Below are positions 32,572-37,548 of a DNA stretch of 48,229 bases, one piece after another. The translations under genes were made by a program, and so were the position numbers. The stretch is from Spirochaetales bacterium (lineage in GTDB: Bacteria; Spirochaetota; Spirochaetia; Sphaerochaetales; Sphaerochaetaceae). Each line of letters starts with the position of its first letter. Positions within the stretch are counted from its first letter, which is position 1. The notes under the pieces were generated by a model. It did no database searches. It was not told the origin of the DNA and saw only the letters and a program-made list of their open reading frames with translations. The stretch lies in assembly GCA_017478205.1 (NCBI GenBank), contig JAFVDZ010000019.1, positions 1-48,229 of the forward strand, given 5' to 3'.

Positions 32572-35472
32572 ATGAATCACGTAGGCATAGACATCGGCTC
32601 GACAACTATAAAAGTTGTCGTTCTAAACGATGAGGGGGATCTTCTTTTCAGTGCTTACGAGCGTCATTACTCGGAAATCGTCAAAAAATCCGAAGAAATG
32701 CTCACTCGCATAATTCCACTCATCAAAAATGAAAAAATTACACTGGCGATCAGTGGATCTGCAGGCATGGGAATGGCCCAGGCCTGTGATATCCCGTTCA
32801 TTCAGGAAGTTTATGCAACAAGAGTAGCAGTCCAGAGATATATACCTGATATCGATGCCGTAATTGAGCTAGGAGGAGAGGATGCAAAGATCCTTTTCCT
32901 GACAAATGGTCTAGAAGTCAGGATGAATGGTTCCTGCGCAGGTGGCACAGGTGCATTCATCGACCAGATGGCCACACTTTTGGGAGTCGGTAGAGACGAT
33001 ATAGATTATTTTGCACAGCGAGCAACTAAACTCTATACAATTGCATCCCGCTGTGGTGTATTTGCAAAGACAGATGTCCAGCCCCTTATAAATCAGGGCG
33101 CCAAGACAGAAGACATTGCAGCTAGTATTCTCCAGGCTGTTGTAAACCAGACCGTAGCAGGCCTTTCACAGGGAAGAAAGATCAAGGGCAATGTCGTCTA
33201 CCTTGGTGGACCTCTCACCTTCGTCTCCACTCTAAGAAAGCAATTCGATGAGACACTAGATACAACTGGCATCCTACCAGAAAACTCACTCTACTATGTT
33301 GCAATGGGAACTGCCCTTTCCAAGACAGGAAAGACATTCCTGCTTTCTGAAGCAATCGAAAGCCTCAAGAACAATAGAGGAAAGGGAAACTATGTTACCC
33401 TTCCACCTCTATTCGAGAATGAGGCAGAGTATCAAGAGTTCATACAGAGACACAGCGAAACAAGAGTAAAGGCAACTGACCCAAGGGCCTACCATGGCAA
33501 GGCTTATTTCGGTGTCGATGCAGGCTCGACCACGATAAAGGTCTGTCTTATCGATGAGGATGGAAACGTCCTTTTGACACGCTATGGCACAAACAATGGA
33601 AATCCTATACAGGCAGTCAAATCCTTCCTCAATGAATTCTATGAGGAGTTTCCATATATCCAGATTGCAGGATCTGCCTCTACAGGTTATGGAGAAGAGC
33701 TACTGAAGTCAGCATTCCGCCTCGATTGGGGCCTTGTAGAGACCCAAGCACACTTCAAGGGAGCAAGGTTCTTCCTTCCTGATGTCGATTTCATCATCGA
33801 TATCGGAGGACAGGATATGAAGTGCTTCTGTATCCGTGATGGTGCAATCGACGATATATTCCTCAATGAAGCTTGCTCTTCGGGCTGTGGCTCATTTTTA
33901 CAGACATTCGCAAATGCATTGGGTAAGGGTGTTTCCGAGTTTGCAGAACTCGCGCTCAAAGCAAAGGCACCTGTAGATCTTGGTTCAAGATGTACTGTAT
34001 TCATGAACTCCTCTGTAAAGCAGGCACAGAAAGATGGTGCCTCTGTTGAGGATATCTCAGCAGGACTGGCAATATCTGTTGTAAAGAATGCTCTCTACAA
34101 GGTAATAAGAGTCTCAAGTGCAGAAAGCCTTGGCAGGAACATCGTTGTCCAGGGTGGCACATTCATGAACAATGCTGTTCTCAGAGCCTTTGAAAAGGAG
34201 ATGGGAGTAAATGTGATCAGACCTGACATCGCAGGTATAATGGGTGCATTTGGAGCAGCCCTTTATGCACGCGAGAAAGCAAAGAAGCTAGGTCAGGAAA
34301 AGAGCACTATACTTTCACAAGGTGAAGTACAGGAGCTTAGACACAAGGTTTCAACAACAAATTGTGGACTCTGTACAAACCACTGTCTTTTAACAATAAA
34401 CACCTTCGATGGAAATAGAAGACTCATCAGCGGAAACCGCTGTGAGCGCCCTCTTGCAAAGAAAGTGAGAGTCAGCGAAGAAGAGAATATCTACGCTTTC
34501 AAGCAGAAGTATTTCGACTCCATCATGGCTGATGAGGGAGAGGATATAAATGGCACCATAGGAATTCCTATGGCTCTTGGCATGTATGAGCTTTTGCCAT
34601 TCTGGCATACATTCTTCAGAGAACTTGGCTACAAGGTAGTCTGTTCCGGAAATTCAACAAGACGCCTCTATGTATCAGGACAGGGAAGCATCCCATCAGA
34701 TACTGCATGCTTTCCTGCAAAGCTTGCGCATGGCCATATAGAAGCTCTGCTTGATAAAGGTGTAAAGAAGATCTGGCTCCCCTGCTCTTCATACAATGTC
34801 GATGAAAAAAAGGGAAACAACCACTTCAATTGTCCTGTAGTAGCTTACTATGGTGAAGTTATCAGAGCAAATCAGGACCTGAGAGGTGCCGAGATCCTCG
34901 ATCCGTTCCTCTCACTTGAATTTCCTCGTTACCTTGAAAAAAGACTCTCTGAAGCATTGGGCATTCCAAGAAGAAAACTTAGAGGCCCAATCAAGAAGGC
35001 ATATGAGAGCCTCGATAGATATCACAAGGCTGTGATAGATAAGGGCAAAGAGATAATTGCTGGTGCAAATGATCGACCTATAATAGTTCTGTCCGGTAGA
35101 CCATACCATATCGACCAGGAGACAAATCATGGAATTGACCGACTGGTTGCAGGTCTTGGTGCACTTGTAATCAGCGAAGATTGTCTCAGCTACCTTGAAA
35201 GCAAGAAGTCTGTAGAGGTCCTGAACCAATGGACATACCACGCAAGACTTTATGATGCAGCAAGATATGTAACTGAACACGAGAACATGAACCTTGTTCA
35301 GTTCGTTTCCTTTGGCTGTGGACTTGATGCTGTCACTACCGATGAAGTTAGAAGTATATTGAAGGAAAAGGACAAGATTTACACACAGATCAAGATCGAT
35401 GAGATCACAAATGTGGGAGCCGTCAATATCCGTCTAAGAAGCCTCTTTGCAGCACTGGAGGAGCGACAATGA
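32572..35472 (+). CDS. Double-headed 2-hydroxyacyl-CoA dehydratase activator-type ATPase
   Basis: A 966-residue protein with two BadF/BcrA-type ASKHA ATPase domains (about 1-270 and 310-595) and a C-terminal CoA-activase-related domain of the DUF2229 type (about 655-966; SFGCGLDAVTTDEVRSIL). Each ATPase domain starts with GIDIGSTTIK or GVDAGSTTIK and has a pair of cysteines 39 residues apart (C122/C161, and the first C of ACSSGCG with SRCTVF). In HgdC-type activators, which I recall with the same spacing, these hold one [4Fe-4S] cluster between two subunits. Here one chain could form the whole pseudo-dimer. It would drive ATP-dependent low-potential electron transfer to the overlapping downstream partner. 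Substrate unknown. Confidence 0.88.
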   Translation: MNHVGIDIGSTTIKVVVLNDEGDLLFSAYERHYSEIVKKSEEMLTRIIPLIKNEKITLAISGSAGMGMAQACDIPFIQEVYATRVAVQRYIPDIDAVIELGGEDAKILFLTNGLEVRMNGSCAGGTGAFIDQMATLLGVGRDDIDYFAQRATKLYTIASRCGVFAKTDVQPLINQGAKTEDIAASILQAVVNQTVAGLSQGRKIKGNVVYLGGPLTFVSTLRKQFDETLDTTGILPENSLYYVAMGTALSKTGKTFLLSEAIESLKNNRGKGNYVTLPPLFENEAEYQEFIQRHSETRVKATDPRAYHGKAYFGVDAGSTTIKVCLIDEDGNVLLTRYGTNNGNPIQAVKSFLNEFYEEFPYIQIAGSASTGYGEELLKSAFRLDWGLVETQAHFKGARFFLPDVDFIIDIGGQDMKCFCIRDGAIDDIFLNEACSSGCGSFLQTFANALGKGVSEFAELALKAKAPVDLGSRCTVFMNSSVKQAQKDGASVEDISAGLAISVVKNALYKVIRVSSAESLGRNIVVQGGTFMNNAVLRAFEKEMGVNVIRPDIAGIMGAFGAALYAREKAKKLGQEKSTILSQGEVQELRHKVSTTNCGLCTNHCLLTINTFDGNRRLISGNRCERPLAKKVRVSEEENIYAFKQKYFDSIMADEGEDINGTIGIPMALGMYELLPFWHTFFRELGYKVVCSGNSTRRLYVSGQGSIPSDTACFPAKLAHGHIEALLDKGVKKIWLPCSSYNVDEKKGNNHFNCPVVAYYGEVIRANQDLRGAEILDPFLSLEFPRYLEKRLSEALGIPRRKLRGPIKKAYESLDRYHKAVIDKGKEIIAGANDRPIIVLSGRPYHIDQETNHGIDRLVAGLGALVISEDCLSYLESKKSVEVLNQWTYHARLYDAARYVTEHENMNLVQFVSFGCGLDAVTTDEVRSILKEKDKIYTQIKIDEITNVGAVNIRLRSLFAALEERQ

Positions 35473-36725
35473 GCGATATACCGTTCACAAAAGAGATGAA
35501 GAAGGATTACACAATTCTTCTTCCTAACATGTCTCCTATCCATTTCGATCTTATGATTGAAGCTGCGAGACTAAATGGCTACAAGGCACTTCTGCTTGAC
35601 AATTCAGGGCCTCAGGTAATCCAAGAGGGACTGAAGTATGTCCACAACGACATGTGCTACCCTGCTCTCATCGTCATCGGTCAGATGATCGATTACATAA
35701 AATCAGGGAAAGTAGATGCCAACAAGTGTGCAGTAGGTATCACACAGACAGGTGGTGGCTGCAGAGCCTCAAACTATTACTATCTTCTCAAGAAAGCCCT
35801 GGAGAGAGCTGGATACCCTCAGATTCCTGTAATATCACTGAACTTGAAGGGAATGAACACAAACCCAGGCCTTGCAATTACACCTACTCTTATCTTCCAG
35901 CTTCTATCAGGACTCATCTATGGTGACCTTCTCATGACTCTTTCACATCAGGTAAGACCTTATGAGATCAACAAGGGAGACACAGATGCTGTTGTAAAGA
36001 AGTGGTCTGACTATCTCAAGAATTGCTACAGAAATAACAAGGGATACTTCTGGAGCCATATGGACAAGAACCTTGCTTCCATCAGCGATGACTTTGCAAA
36101 CATTCCTGTAAACAGAGAAGAAAAGCATGTAAAGGTTGGCGTAGTTGGCGAAATCTACATGAAGTATGCTCCTGTTGGGAACAACAACCTAGAGAAATTC
36201 CTTGAAAACGAAGGGTGCGAGGTCATGATGCCTCCATTCCTTGGCTTCATCCTCTATGGCATCTCGAATGGCATAAGGGACTATGAATTCTATGGTGGTT
36301 TCAAGAGACACATGTACCACGCATTTGCAACAAAGATACTTATGCCAGTACTTAAGAAATTCGAGAAGAAAATTGACAAGGCAATCAAGCGACATGAGGA
36401 GTTTATCGCACCTGCTTCGATCGATGAACTTGAAGAACTTGGCAAGTTGGTAATCAACACAGGATGCAAAATGGGCGAAGGCTGGCTTCTGACAGCCGAG
36501 ATGATAGAACTCATAAAGAAAGGCTATGGAAATATAGTTTGCACACAACCTTTTGGCTGTCTTCCAAACCATATCGTTGCAAAAGGAATGGTCCGTCCGA
36601 TAAAGGAACTCTATCCTGAGTCAAATATCGTACCAATAGACTATGATCCATCAGCAACAAAGGTAAACCAGGAAAATAGAATAAAACTCATGCTTGCTGT
36701 TGCAAGAGAGAACCTAGAAAATTAA
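35469..36725 (+). CDS. 2-Hydroxyacyl-CoA dehydratase D-like Fe-S protein
   Basis: A 418-residue protein of the HGD-D family. Likely cluster cysteines are in MCYPALIVIGQ, TQTGGGCRASNYYYLL, NTGCKMGEGWLL and VCTQPFGCLPNHI. Its ATG overlaps the stop of the ATPase gene by four bases (ATGA). In many bacteria the two are fused in one protein of about 1400 residues, so they almost certainly form one complex. No CoA-transferase or other fermentation gene is adjacent, and known relatives include proteins with double-cubane [8Fe-9S] clusters that reduce small molecules, so a classical dehydratase role should not be assumed. Confidence 0.85.
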   Translation: MSDIPFTKEMKKDYTILLPNMSPIHFDLMIEAARLNGYKALLLDNSGPQVIQEGLKYVHNDMCYPALIVIGQMIDYIKSGKVDANKCAVGITQTGGGCRASNYYYLLKKALERAGYPQIPVISLNLKGMNTNPGLAITPTLIFQLLSGLIYGDLLMTLSHQVRPYEINKGDTDAVVKKWSDYLKNCYRNNKGYFWSHMDKNLASISDDFANIPVNREEKHVKVGVVGEIYMKYAPVGNNNLEKFLENEGCEVMMPPFLGFILYGISNGIRDYEFYGGFKRHMYHAFATKILMPVLKKFEKKIDKAIKRHEEFIAPASIDELEELGKLVINTGCKMGEGWLLTAEMIELIKKGYGNIVCTQPFGCLPNHIVAKGMVRPIKELYPESNIVPIDYDPSATKVNQENRIKLMLAVARENLEN

Positions 36726-36737
36726 ATTTTTAATTTC

Positions 36738-36766
36738 TTGACGTATTGAAATTTAGGCTTGATACT
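36738..36766 (+). promoter_or_regulatory. Promoter of a candidate small RNA
   Basis: TTGACG (36738-36743), a 17-base spacer, GATACT (36761-36766), beginning 13 bases after the upstream stop codon. The predicted start is near 36773. Confidence 0.6.
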
Positions 36767-36772
36767 TTAACT

Positions 36773-36845
36773 GTAATTCCTGTAAACCCGATTTGGTTTG
36801 CACCTCCTTTGGCCAGACATTGTAGGTAGTGTCTGGCCTTTCGTA
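36773..36845 (+). ncRNA. Candidate small RNA with an anti-Shine-Dalgarno segment
   Basis: Between a good promoter and a strong terminator lies a unit of about 70 bases with no open reading frame. It contains a short hairpin (AAACC/GGTTT at 36784-36799) and then CACCTCCTTT (36801-36810), identical to the conserved 3' end of 16S rRNA, directly before the terminator stem. Such a CU-rich single strand could pair with ribosome-binding sites. The downstream DTW gene has its own -10 box (TATACT, 36872-36877), so this is not needed as its leader. Alternatives are a 3' UTR of the preceding operon or a DTW attenuator. Confidence 0.45.
36811..36843 (+). terminator. Terminator before the DTW gene
   Basis: GGCCAGACA (36811-36819) pairs perfectly with TGTCTGGCC (36830-36838) around a 10-base loop, followed by TTTCGT. 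It would end both the candidate small RNA and read-through from the dehydratase-like operon. Confidence 0.8.
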
Positions 36846-36900: not shown

Positions 36901-37548
36901 ATGAGTGGAATCTGCTATCGCTGCTTTAAATCAAAGGAAGCCTGTCTATGTTCCTACATCAAGGAACTTGATACAGGTGTCAAGTTTGTAATCCTCATCC
37001 ATCCTCGTGAAGCAAGGCTAATGAAGACAGGAACTGGCCGCATTGCGCACCTCTCTCTGAAGGACAGTGAACTCATTCAAGGATGCAGTTTCAATGAAAA
37101 TGAAAGAGTCGTCAAACTTCTGTCAGACCCTACCTATCATCCATTCCTTCTCTACCCTGGAAATGGTGCAATTACAACTGACAGCAAGGCATTTAAAGAG
37201 AAGATAAGTGGCAAAATTCCTATGATCATAATCCTTGATGGGACCTGGTCACAGGCAAAGAAAATGCTAAAATATTCCCCTAACCTTCAGTCTATAGACC
37301 GCCTAAGCTTCAACAAAGGCTACTCCTCCAGATTCATCTTCAAGAGAGAGCCTACTCCTGATGCAATATCTACAATCGAAGCATGCTACTACACTATAAA
37401 GGAAATGGGTGAACTAGGCCTTGCTTTTTCTGATGGTGCTGATAACTTGATCTCTGTTTTTGATAGAATGGTTTCATTCCAACTTGAGTGTGAAAGAAAA
37501 CGAAGAGAACTAAATGCACCAGAAAGAGTGCCATTGCAGATAAATTGA
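36901..37548 (+). CDS. DTW-domain tRNA-uridine aminocarboxypropyltransferase
   Basis: A 215-residue protein of the DTW family (TapT/TuaA-like), which adds the 3-amino-3-carboxypropyl group of S-adenosylmethionine to uridine (acp3U) in tRNA. It has an N-terminal zinc-type CYRCFKSKEACLC, HPREARLMKTGTGRIAHL, and the family-naming LDGTWSQAKKML (about residues 116-127). The C-terminus has FKREPTPDAISTIEACYY. It has a GAGGA ribosome-binding site and a -10 box at 36872, with a weak -35 box. Transcribed alone toward the convergent ABC operon terminator. Confidence 0.9.
   Translation: MSGICYRCFKSKEACLCSYIKELDTGVKFVILIHPREARLMKTGTGRIAHLSLKDSELIQGCSFNENERVVKLLSDPTYHPFLLYPGNGAITTDSKAFKEKISGKIPMIIILDGTWSQAKKMLKYSPNLQSIDRLSFNKGYSSRFIFKREPTPDAISTIEACYYTIKEMGELGLAFSDGADNLISVFDRMVSFQLECERKRRELNAPERVPLQIN

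Follow-up and report, generated by a model that had tools for sequence, protein, structure and literature searches.

The window analysed here, a 48,229-nt stretch of DNA from a genome of the gut spirochaete genus Bullifex, carries a short locus that, by computation, is independent of its neighbouring genes, structured, conserved throughout the genus, invariant in an unpaired anti-Shine-Dalgarno (anti-SD) linker, and devoid of coding capacity. The locus is likely, in our view, to encode a trans-acting antisense small RNA of about 70-80 nt, probably Hfq-independent and equipped with its own promoter and terminator, that would act by blocking Shine-Dalgarno (SD) sequences. Mechanistically, a short hairpin and the terminator would hold a CCUCCUU linker open between them, the linker would base-pair with AAGGAGG-type SD sequences, and this pairing would prevent 30S subunits from loading onto selected mRNAs, probably with no need of Hfq. 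Transcription, SD pairing in the cell and translational repression are steps that we infer from the sequence of the locus and its relatives.

Architecture and conservation of the locus

Structurally, the locus runs along the forward strand at 36738-36838 in the order -35 box, 8-bp hairpin, unpaired CCUCCUUU and terminator. The -35 element CTTGAC (36737-36742) lies 34-36 nt 5′ of a conserved TGTA in 16/16 genomes and, as the first-pass annotation had proposed, TTGACG-N17-GATACT is present at 36738-36766, with GATACT (36761-36766) forming a -10-like element at a spacer of 17 from the -35 box. This second element is the less well defined of the two boxes, since other Bullifex species have TATAACAAT, CAAGAAT or CAAATAAT at this position. 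The predicted small RNA, about 70-75 nt long (36769-36838, forward strand; fold z of −5.0 versus shuffles), would have its 5′ end at about 36772-36774 and is found as a single copy in all 16 genomes of the genus. Fold prediction and comparison give it an 8-pair hairpin, UGUAAACC-CGAUUU-GGUUUGCA (36781-36802), in which 36781-36788 is predicted to pair with 36795-36802, followed by the single-stranded anti-SD segment CCUCCUUU (36803-36810), whose CCUCCUU is invariant in 16/16 genomes, and by a Rho-independent terminator stem-loop (36811-36838). The anti-SD motif CACCTCCTTT does stand directly before the terminator, at 36801-36810, as originally noticed, and two structural details of that earlier description had to be amended: the terminator is where it had been placed, but its predicted stem has 12 pairs around a 4-nt loop, not 9, and of the CACCTCC taken to be unpaired, the CCTCC part is open whereas CA forms the end of the upstream hairpin, leaving CCUCCUUU as the open part. 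A G+C-rich terminator stem-loop is found in 16/16 Bullifex genomes; most of them have a T-run, which in the clade of the window is short (TTTCG).

Taken from the window alone, the evidence for a small RNA is weak. CACCTCC occurs 131 times in the 1.9-Mb genome versus 138 times for its reversed control, so that chance alone would supply a few copies of an anti-SD 10-mer such as this, and promoter-like sites are no more frequent in the window than in shuffles. The locus rises above chance because it is conserved in 16/16 members of the genus, a set that includes B. porci (NZ_VUNN01000003.1), ‘Candidatus Aphodenecus’ and other Spirochaetales MAGs, and whose 16 rows of comparison share ancestry.

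A DNA search of relatives recovered the segment in 13/16 Bullifex genomes, and a covariance model built on its 48-nt core gave one match each in 16/16, whereas the 123 further genomes searched in the same order had none; a wider RNA model had no matches outside Bullifex in a sample of 393 genomes across the phylum (6 Bullifex and 387 others). Four pattern matches outside the genus, in MAGs or genomes of Clostridia, Acidobacteria, Sphingorhabdus and Rugamonas, fell within or beside open frames, had no neighbours in common and were regarded as chance. Between the window and its relatives, 30-37 of 38 nt of a core segment are identical, and the last 15 nt of this core, GGUUUGCACCUCCUU, are unchanged in all 16 genomes; in the same comparison, the adjacent gene has only 38-56% identity at its third codon positions. 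The first-pass annotation had held that a conserved terminator beside a non-conserved segment would point to a simple 3′ UTR, and the opposite was found: the hairpin and CCUCCUU are conserved, and the terminator changes its sequence between clades with its pairing retained (GGCCAGACA..UGUCUGGCC; GGCUGG..CCAGCC).

Across the genus, the hairpin has an invariant 3′ arm, a variable loop, and a 5′ arm whose only substitutions exchange G-U and A-U pairs; as each of these alters one side of a pair (G-U to A-U), there is no formal covariation. Genomes of the B. porci group (G003, G006 and G010) have a different 5′ tail and loop and, in a 5′ arm that still pairs, UGUAGACC in place of UGUGAACC; their 3′ arm and linker are unchanged. 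That the 3′ arm is invariant suggests recognition of more than the SD itself; perhaps the arm joins the duplex once the weak hairpin opens, or a protein reads it. The terminator loop is CCCC(C) in 10 species (L005, L021-L028, L031, L032), and not in the window's or the B. porci clade; such a loop is a possible second SD-pairing site.

Neighbouring genes and coding capacity

The small RNA lies 3′ of an hgdB-like gene, on the same strand and at a distance of about 50-160 nt, in 12 or 13 of the 16 genomes, where it presumably also ends transcription that runs on from that gene. On this view it could be no more than the gene's 3′ UTR and terminator, or else the leader of the downstream DTW gene, with a chance likeness to an anti-SD sequence. 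We regard this reading as very improbable, contradicted as it already is by synteny, by the pattern of conservation and by the TTGAC box. In G001, G009 and G012 there is no hgdB-like gene and the small RNA is nevertheless kept, with a RidA gene diverging from it on one side and rnc converging on it from the other, so that in these three genomes it needs its own promoter. The DTW-domain gene (PF03942, E 1.8e-48; 36901-37548) adjoins the small RNA in only 3/16 genomes (G000, G004 and G013), the part of the RNA outside the terminator is the most conserved, and its own TTGAC is found in 16/16. Since three-genome synteny, the rarity of the DTW gene and the TTGAC box all speak against a 3′ UTR or a leader, we take the locus to be, as predicted from these comparisons, a stand-alone small RNA gene independent of both neighbours. 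The independent transcription unit proposed on first pass thus agrees with synteny in the three genomes and the genus-wide TTGAC, whereas its further proposal, a downstream DTW gene with a -10 box and ribosome-binding site of its own, held for the identity of the gene (the PF03942 match) and was not confirmed as regards a separate promoter.

As to the surroundings, three other genomes carry both the HgdB-like gene and rnc at the locus, which makes the origin of the RidA/rnc gene order visible. Upstream of the small RNA, the window (32572-36722) contains a BcrAD/BadFG-DUF2229 CoA-enzyme activase gene and then the HgdB-like gene, which is related to 2-hydroxyacyl-CoA dehydratases with Pfam scores below cut-off; this pair is kept in most Bullifex species and is missing at this place in three with otherwise common neighbours. 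The DTW-domain gene is found in the 3/16 Bullifex genomes and in two other genomes among the 61 relatives searched.

A coding role is excluded by the comparison of reading frames. The 9-codon frame GTG AAC CCC GTT TGG TTT GCA CCT CCT TAG, present in 8/16 genomes, would make the product a micropeptide or leader peptide (GUG-NPVWFAPP-stop) instead of a base-pairing RNA, and Pro-Pro ahead of a stop codon can stall ribosomes. This is, however, the least probable of the readings considered and is already contradicted by the genus, in which the frame is broken or without a start in 5/16 genomes: it has no start codon in G000, G003 and G006, is shifted in G008, and has no following stop in G014. Moreover, no SD precedes the GTG, the nucleotides are invariant even where the frame is lost, and there is no common downstream gene for a leader peptide to control. 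On the minus strand, AAGGAGGTG was considered as the SD of a small ORF and rejected, the sequence common to all genomes lacking a start codon at a downstream distance of 3-15 nt, and a minus-strand ATG in the B. porci clade opens a differing frame that is not common to the others. Rfam 15 returned no families over the window at the gathering threshold, and only chance-level matches at a relaxed threshold.

Predicted pairing with Shine-Dalgarno sequences

The use of SD sequences in the genus is visible as a G-rich peak at -9. We sampled 447 kb of G000 and 797 kb of G011, two samples that gave 348 + 602 gene starts; about 55% of the sampled window-genome genes have an SD match of 5 nt or more, a share to be read with the gene caller's SD-favouring choice of starts in mind. 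In 16/16 genomes, the unpaired linker complements AAGGAGG exactly, and selective pairing is possible because this 7-nt complement precedes just 16 of the 348 sampled window-genome genes. When the RNA was cofolded with 348 gene starts versus 348 coding stretches, 37 versus 9 sites reached −9 kcal/mol or better. The excess was gone in a linker mutant (CCUCC to CUCUC; 16 versus 15), and another C-rich order, UCCUUCC, gave 29 versus 8, nearly equal to the real linker, so that affinity for SDs is easy to reach. From this preference for gene starts, we read the RNA as a probable antisense RNA covering strong SDs, with SD blocking as its inferred mode of action. Such pairing would be Hfq-independent, because no match to Hfq (PF17209) was detected in the 16 Bullifex genomes by a search in which the controls matched and a divergent Hfq would be missed.

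Searches for particular targets returned no shared mRNA. Extended, wobble-tolerant complements of the invariant 15-mer numbered 39 non-self sites in the 16 genomes versus 55 for the reversed control, that is, without enrichment, and the perfect 15-nt complement occurs solely in the small RNA itself. Near-complements carrying 1-2 mismatches lie mainly within coding regions and vary from species to species (for example, a FeoB-like frame in G006), with one at a real SD, that of a gene for a putative FeMo-cofactor-type protein in G008. Cofolding of the 348 + 602 gene starts gave no conserved target, the top sites being simply strong SDs, and predicted pairing of orthologous gene starts between the two partial genomes agreed weakly (rho 0.28, 65 pairs).

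The lack of a conserved extended mRNA target in these searches, an invariant block composed of hairpin 3′ arm plus linker, and the likeness of a hairpin followed by CACCUCCUUU to helix 45 and the tail at the 16S rRNA 3′ end would all fit a CCUCC that is read by the translation machinery or by an RNA-binding protein and not by particular mRNAs, with the RNA serving as a decoy or generally modulating either initiation or rRNA-processing factors. We think this unlikely, since GAUCA separates helix and tail in 16S rRNA whereas here the hairpin abuts CCUCC, and since the likeness to the 16S tail is short (a 10-mer), the 16S 3′ end itself being found in none of the 16 Bullifex assemblies. A genus-wide global regulator that imitates the 16S 3′ end (hairpin plus CACCUCCUUU) and tunes translation initiation on all strongly SD-dependent mRNAs at once, instead of on a few targets, seems to us more doubtful still. 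About on a par with the decoy is a non-coding RNA whose conserved part pairs elsewhere than at SDs, be it in coding regions or with an RNA as sponge target: at 15 nt, the invariant segment is longer than an SD match requires, but its unpaired part is the exact SD complement in 16/16 genomes, and gene starts are preferred over coding DNA. SD blocking by an antisense RNA thus remains the reading that we favour.

Relation to known C-rich regulatory RNAs

In its layout, the proposed SD-blocking RNA resembles LhrC of Listeria monocytogenes, which consists of a stem-loop, a single-stranded C/U-rich stretch and a terminator, has experimentally shown SD pairing, and does not need Hfq for the regulation of lapB (PMC4132741). 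Both have a hairpin, a single-stranded C/U stretch and a terminator whose loop can be C-rich. LhrC, however, carries CUCCC(..)UUUU in three places and is present in five copies per genome, whereas the Bullifex RNA has one copy, CCUCCUU in the linker only, a first loop that is not C-rich, and a CCCC(C) terminator loop in 10/16 genomes. The 2-3 copies of CUCCC/UCCC plus U-run that mark LhrC (loop A, linker and terminator loop) are thus not found, the window clade being C-rich in the linker only, and no sequence kinship to LhrC was seen with Rfam.

A second likeness is to the alpha-r14/NfeR1 and CcsR ‘cuckoo’ RNAs of Alphaproteobacteria, for which SD blocking has likewise been shown by experiment (PMC10746234) and which possess an ultraconserved unpaired anti-SD motif (PMC10746234, PMC10253847): in these RNAs as in ours, the motif is unpaired and conserved while stem sequences drift. 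Their motif is CCUCCUCCC, usually repeated and located in unpaired regions of hairpins, an arrangement not found in Bullifex, where a single CCUCCUU(U/A) stands between two hairpins. In addition, CcsR RNAs share an operon with the gene of a DUF1127 protein and undergo RNase E processing, whereas the Bullifex RNA has a predicted promoter of its own and no such gene adjoining. Among Firmicutes, RsaE/RoxS, FsrA, SprD and other UCCC-motif small RNAs cover the SD with a C-rich unpaired motif (PMC4132741); RsaE/RoxS, FsrA and SprD have this UCCC motif in other structures, and the Bullifex RNA has no Rfam match to any of them. The conserved, unpaired SD-complementary motif that defines the C-rich, SD-blocking class is present (CCUCCUU, which prefers gene starts), and the Hfq that an Hfq-dependent small RNA would require was not matched in the 16 genomes (PF17209). 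By analogy, the best reading is a new family of a known kind, that of putative C-rich, SD-blocking small RNAs.

No regulatory small RNA in this branch of spirochaetes is described in the open literature that we searched. If our reading is true, the C-rich, SD-blocking solution of Firmicutes and Alphaproteobacteria would also exist in Spirochaetota, where it would probably have arisen independently, and the genus, in which Hfq is undetectable, would offer a small system for learning how so short and general a seed gains specificity.
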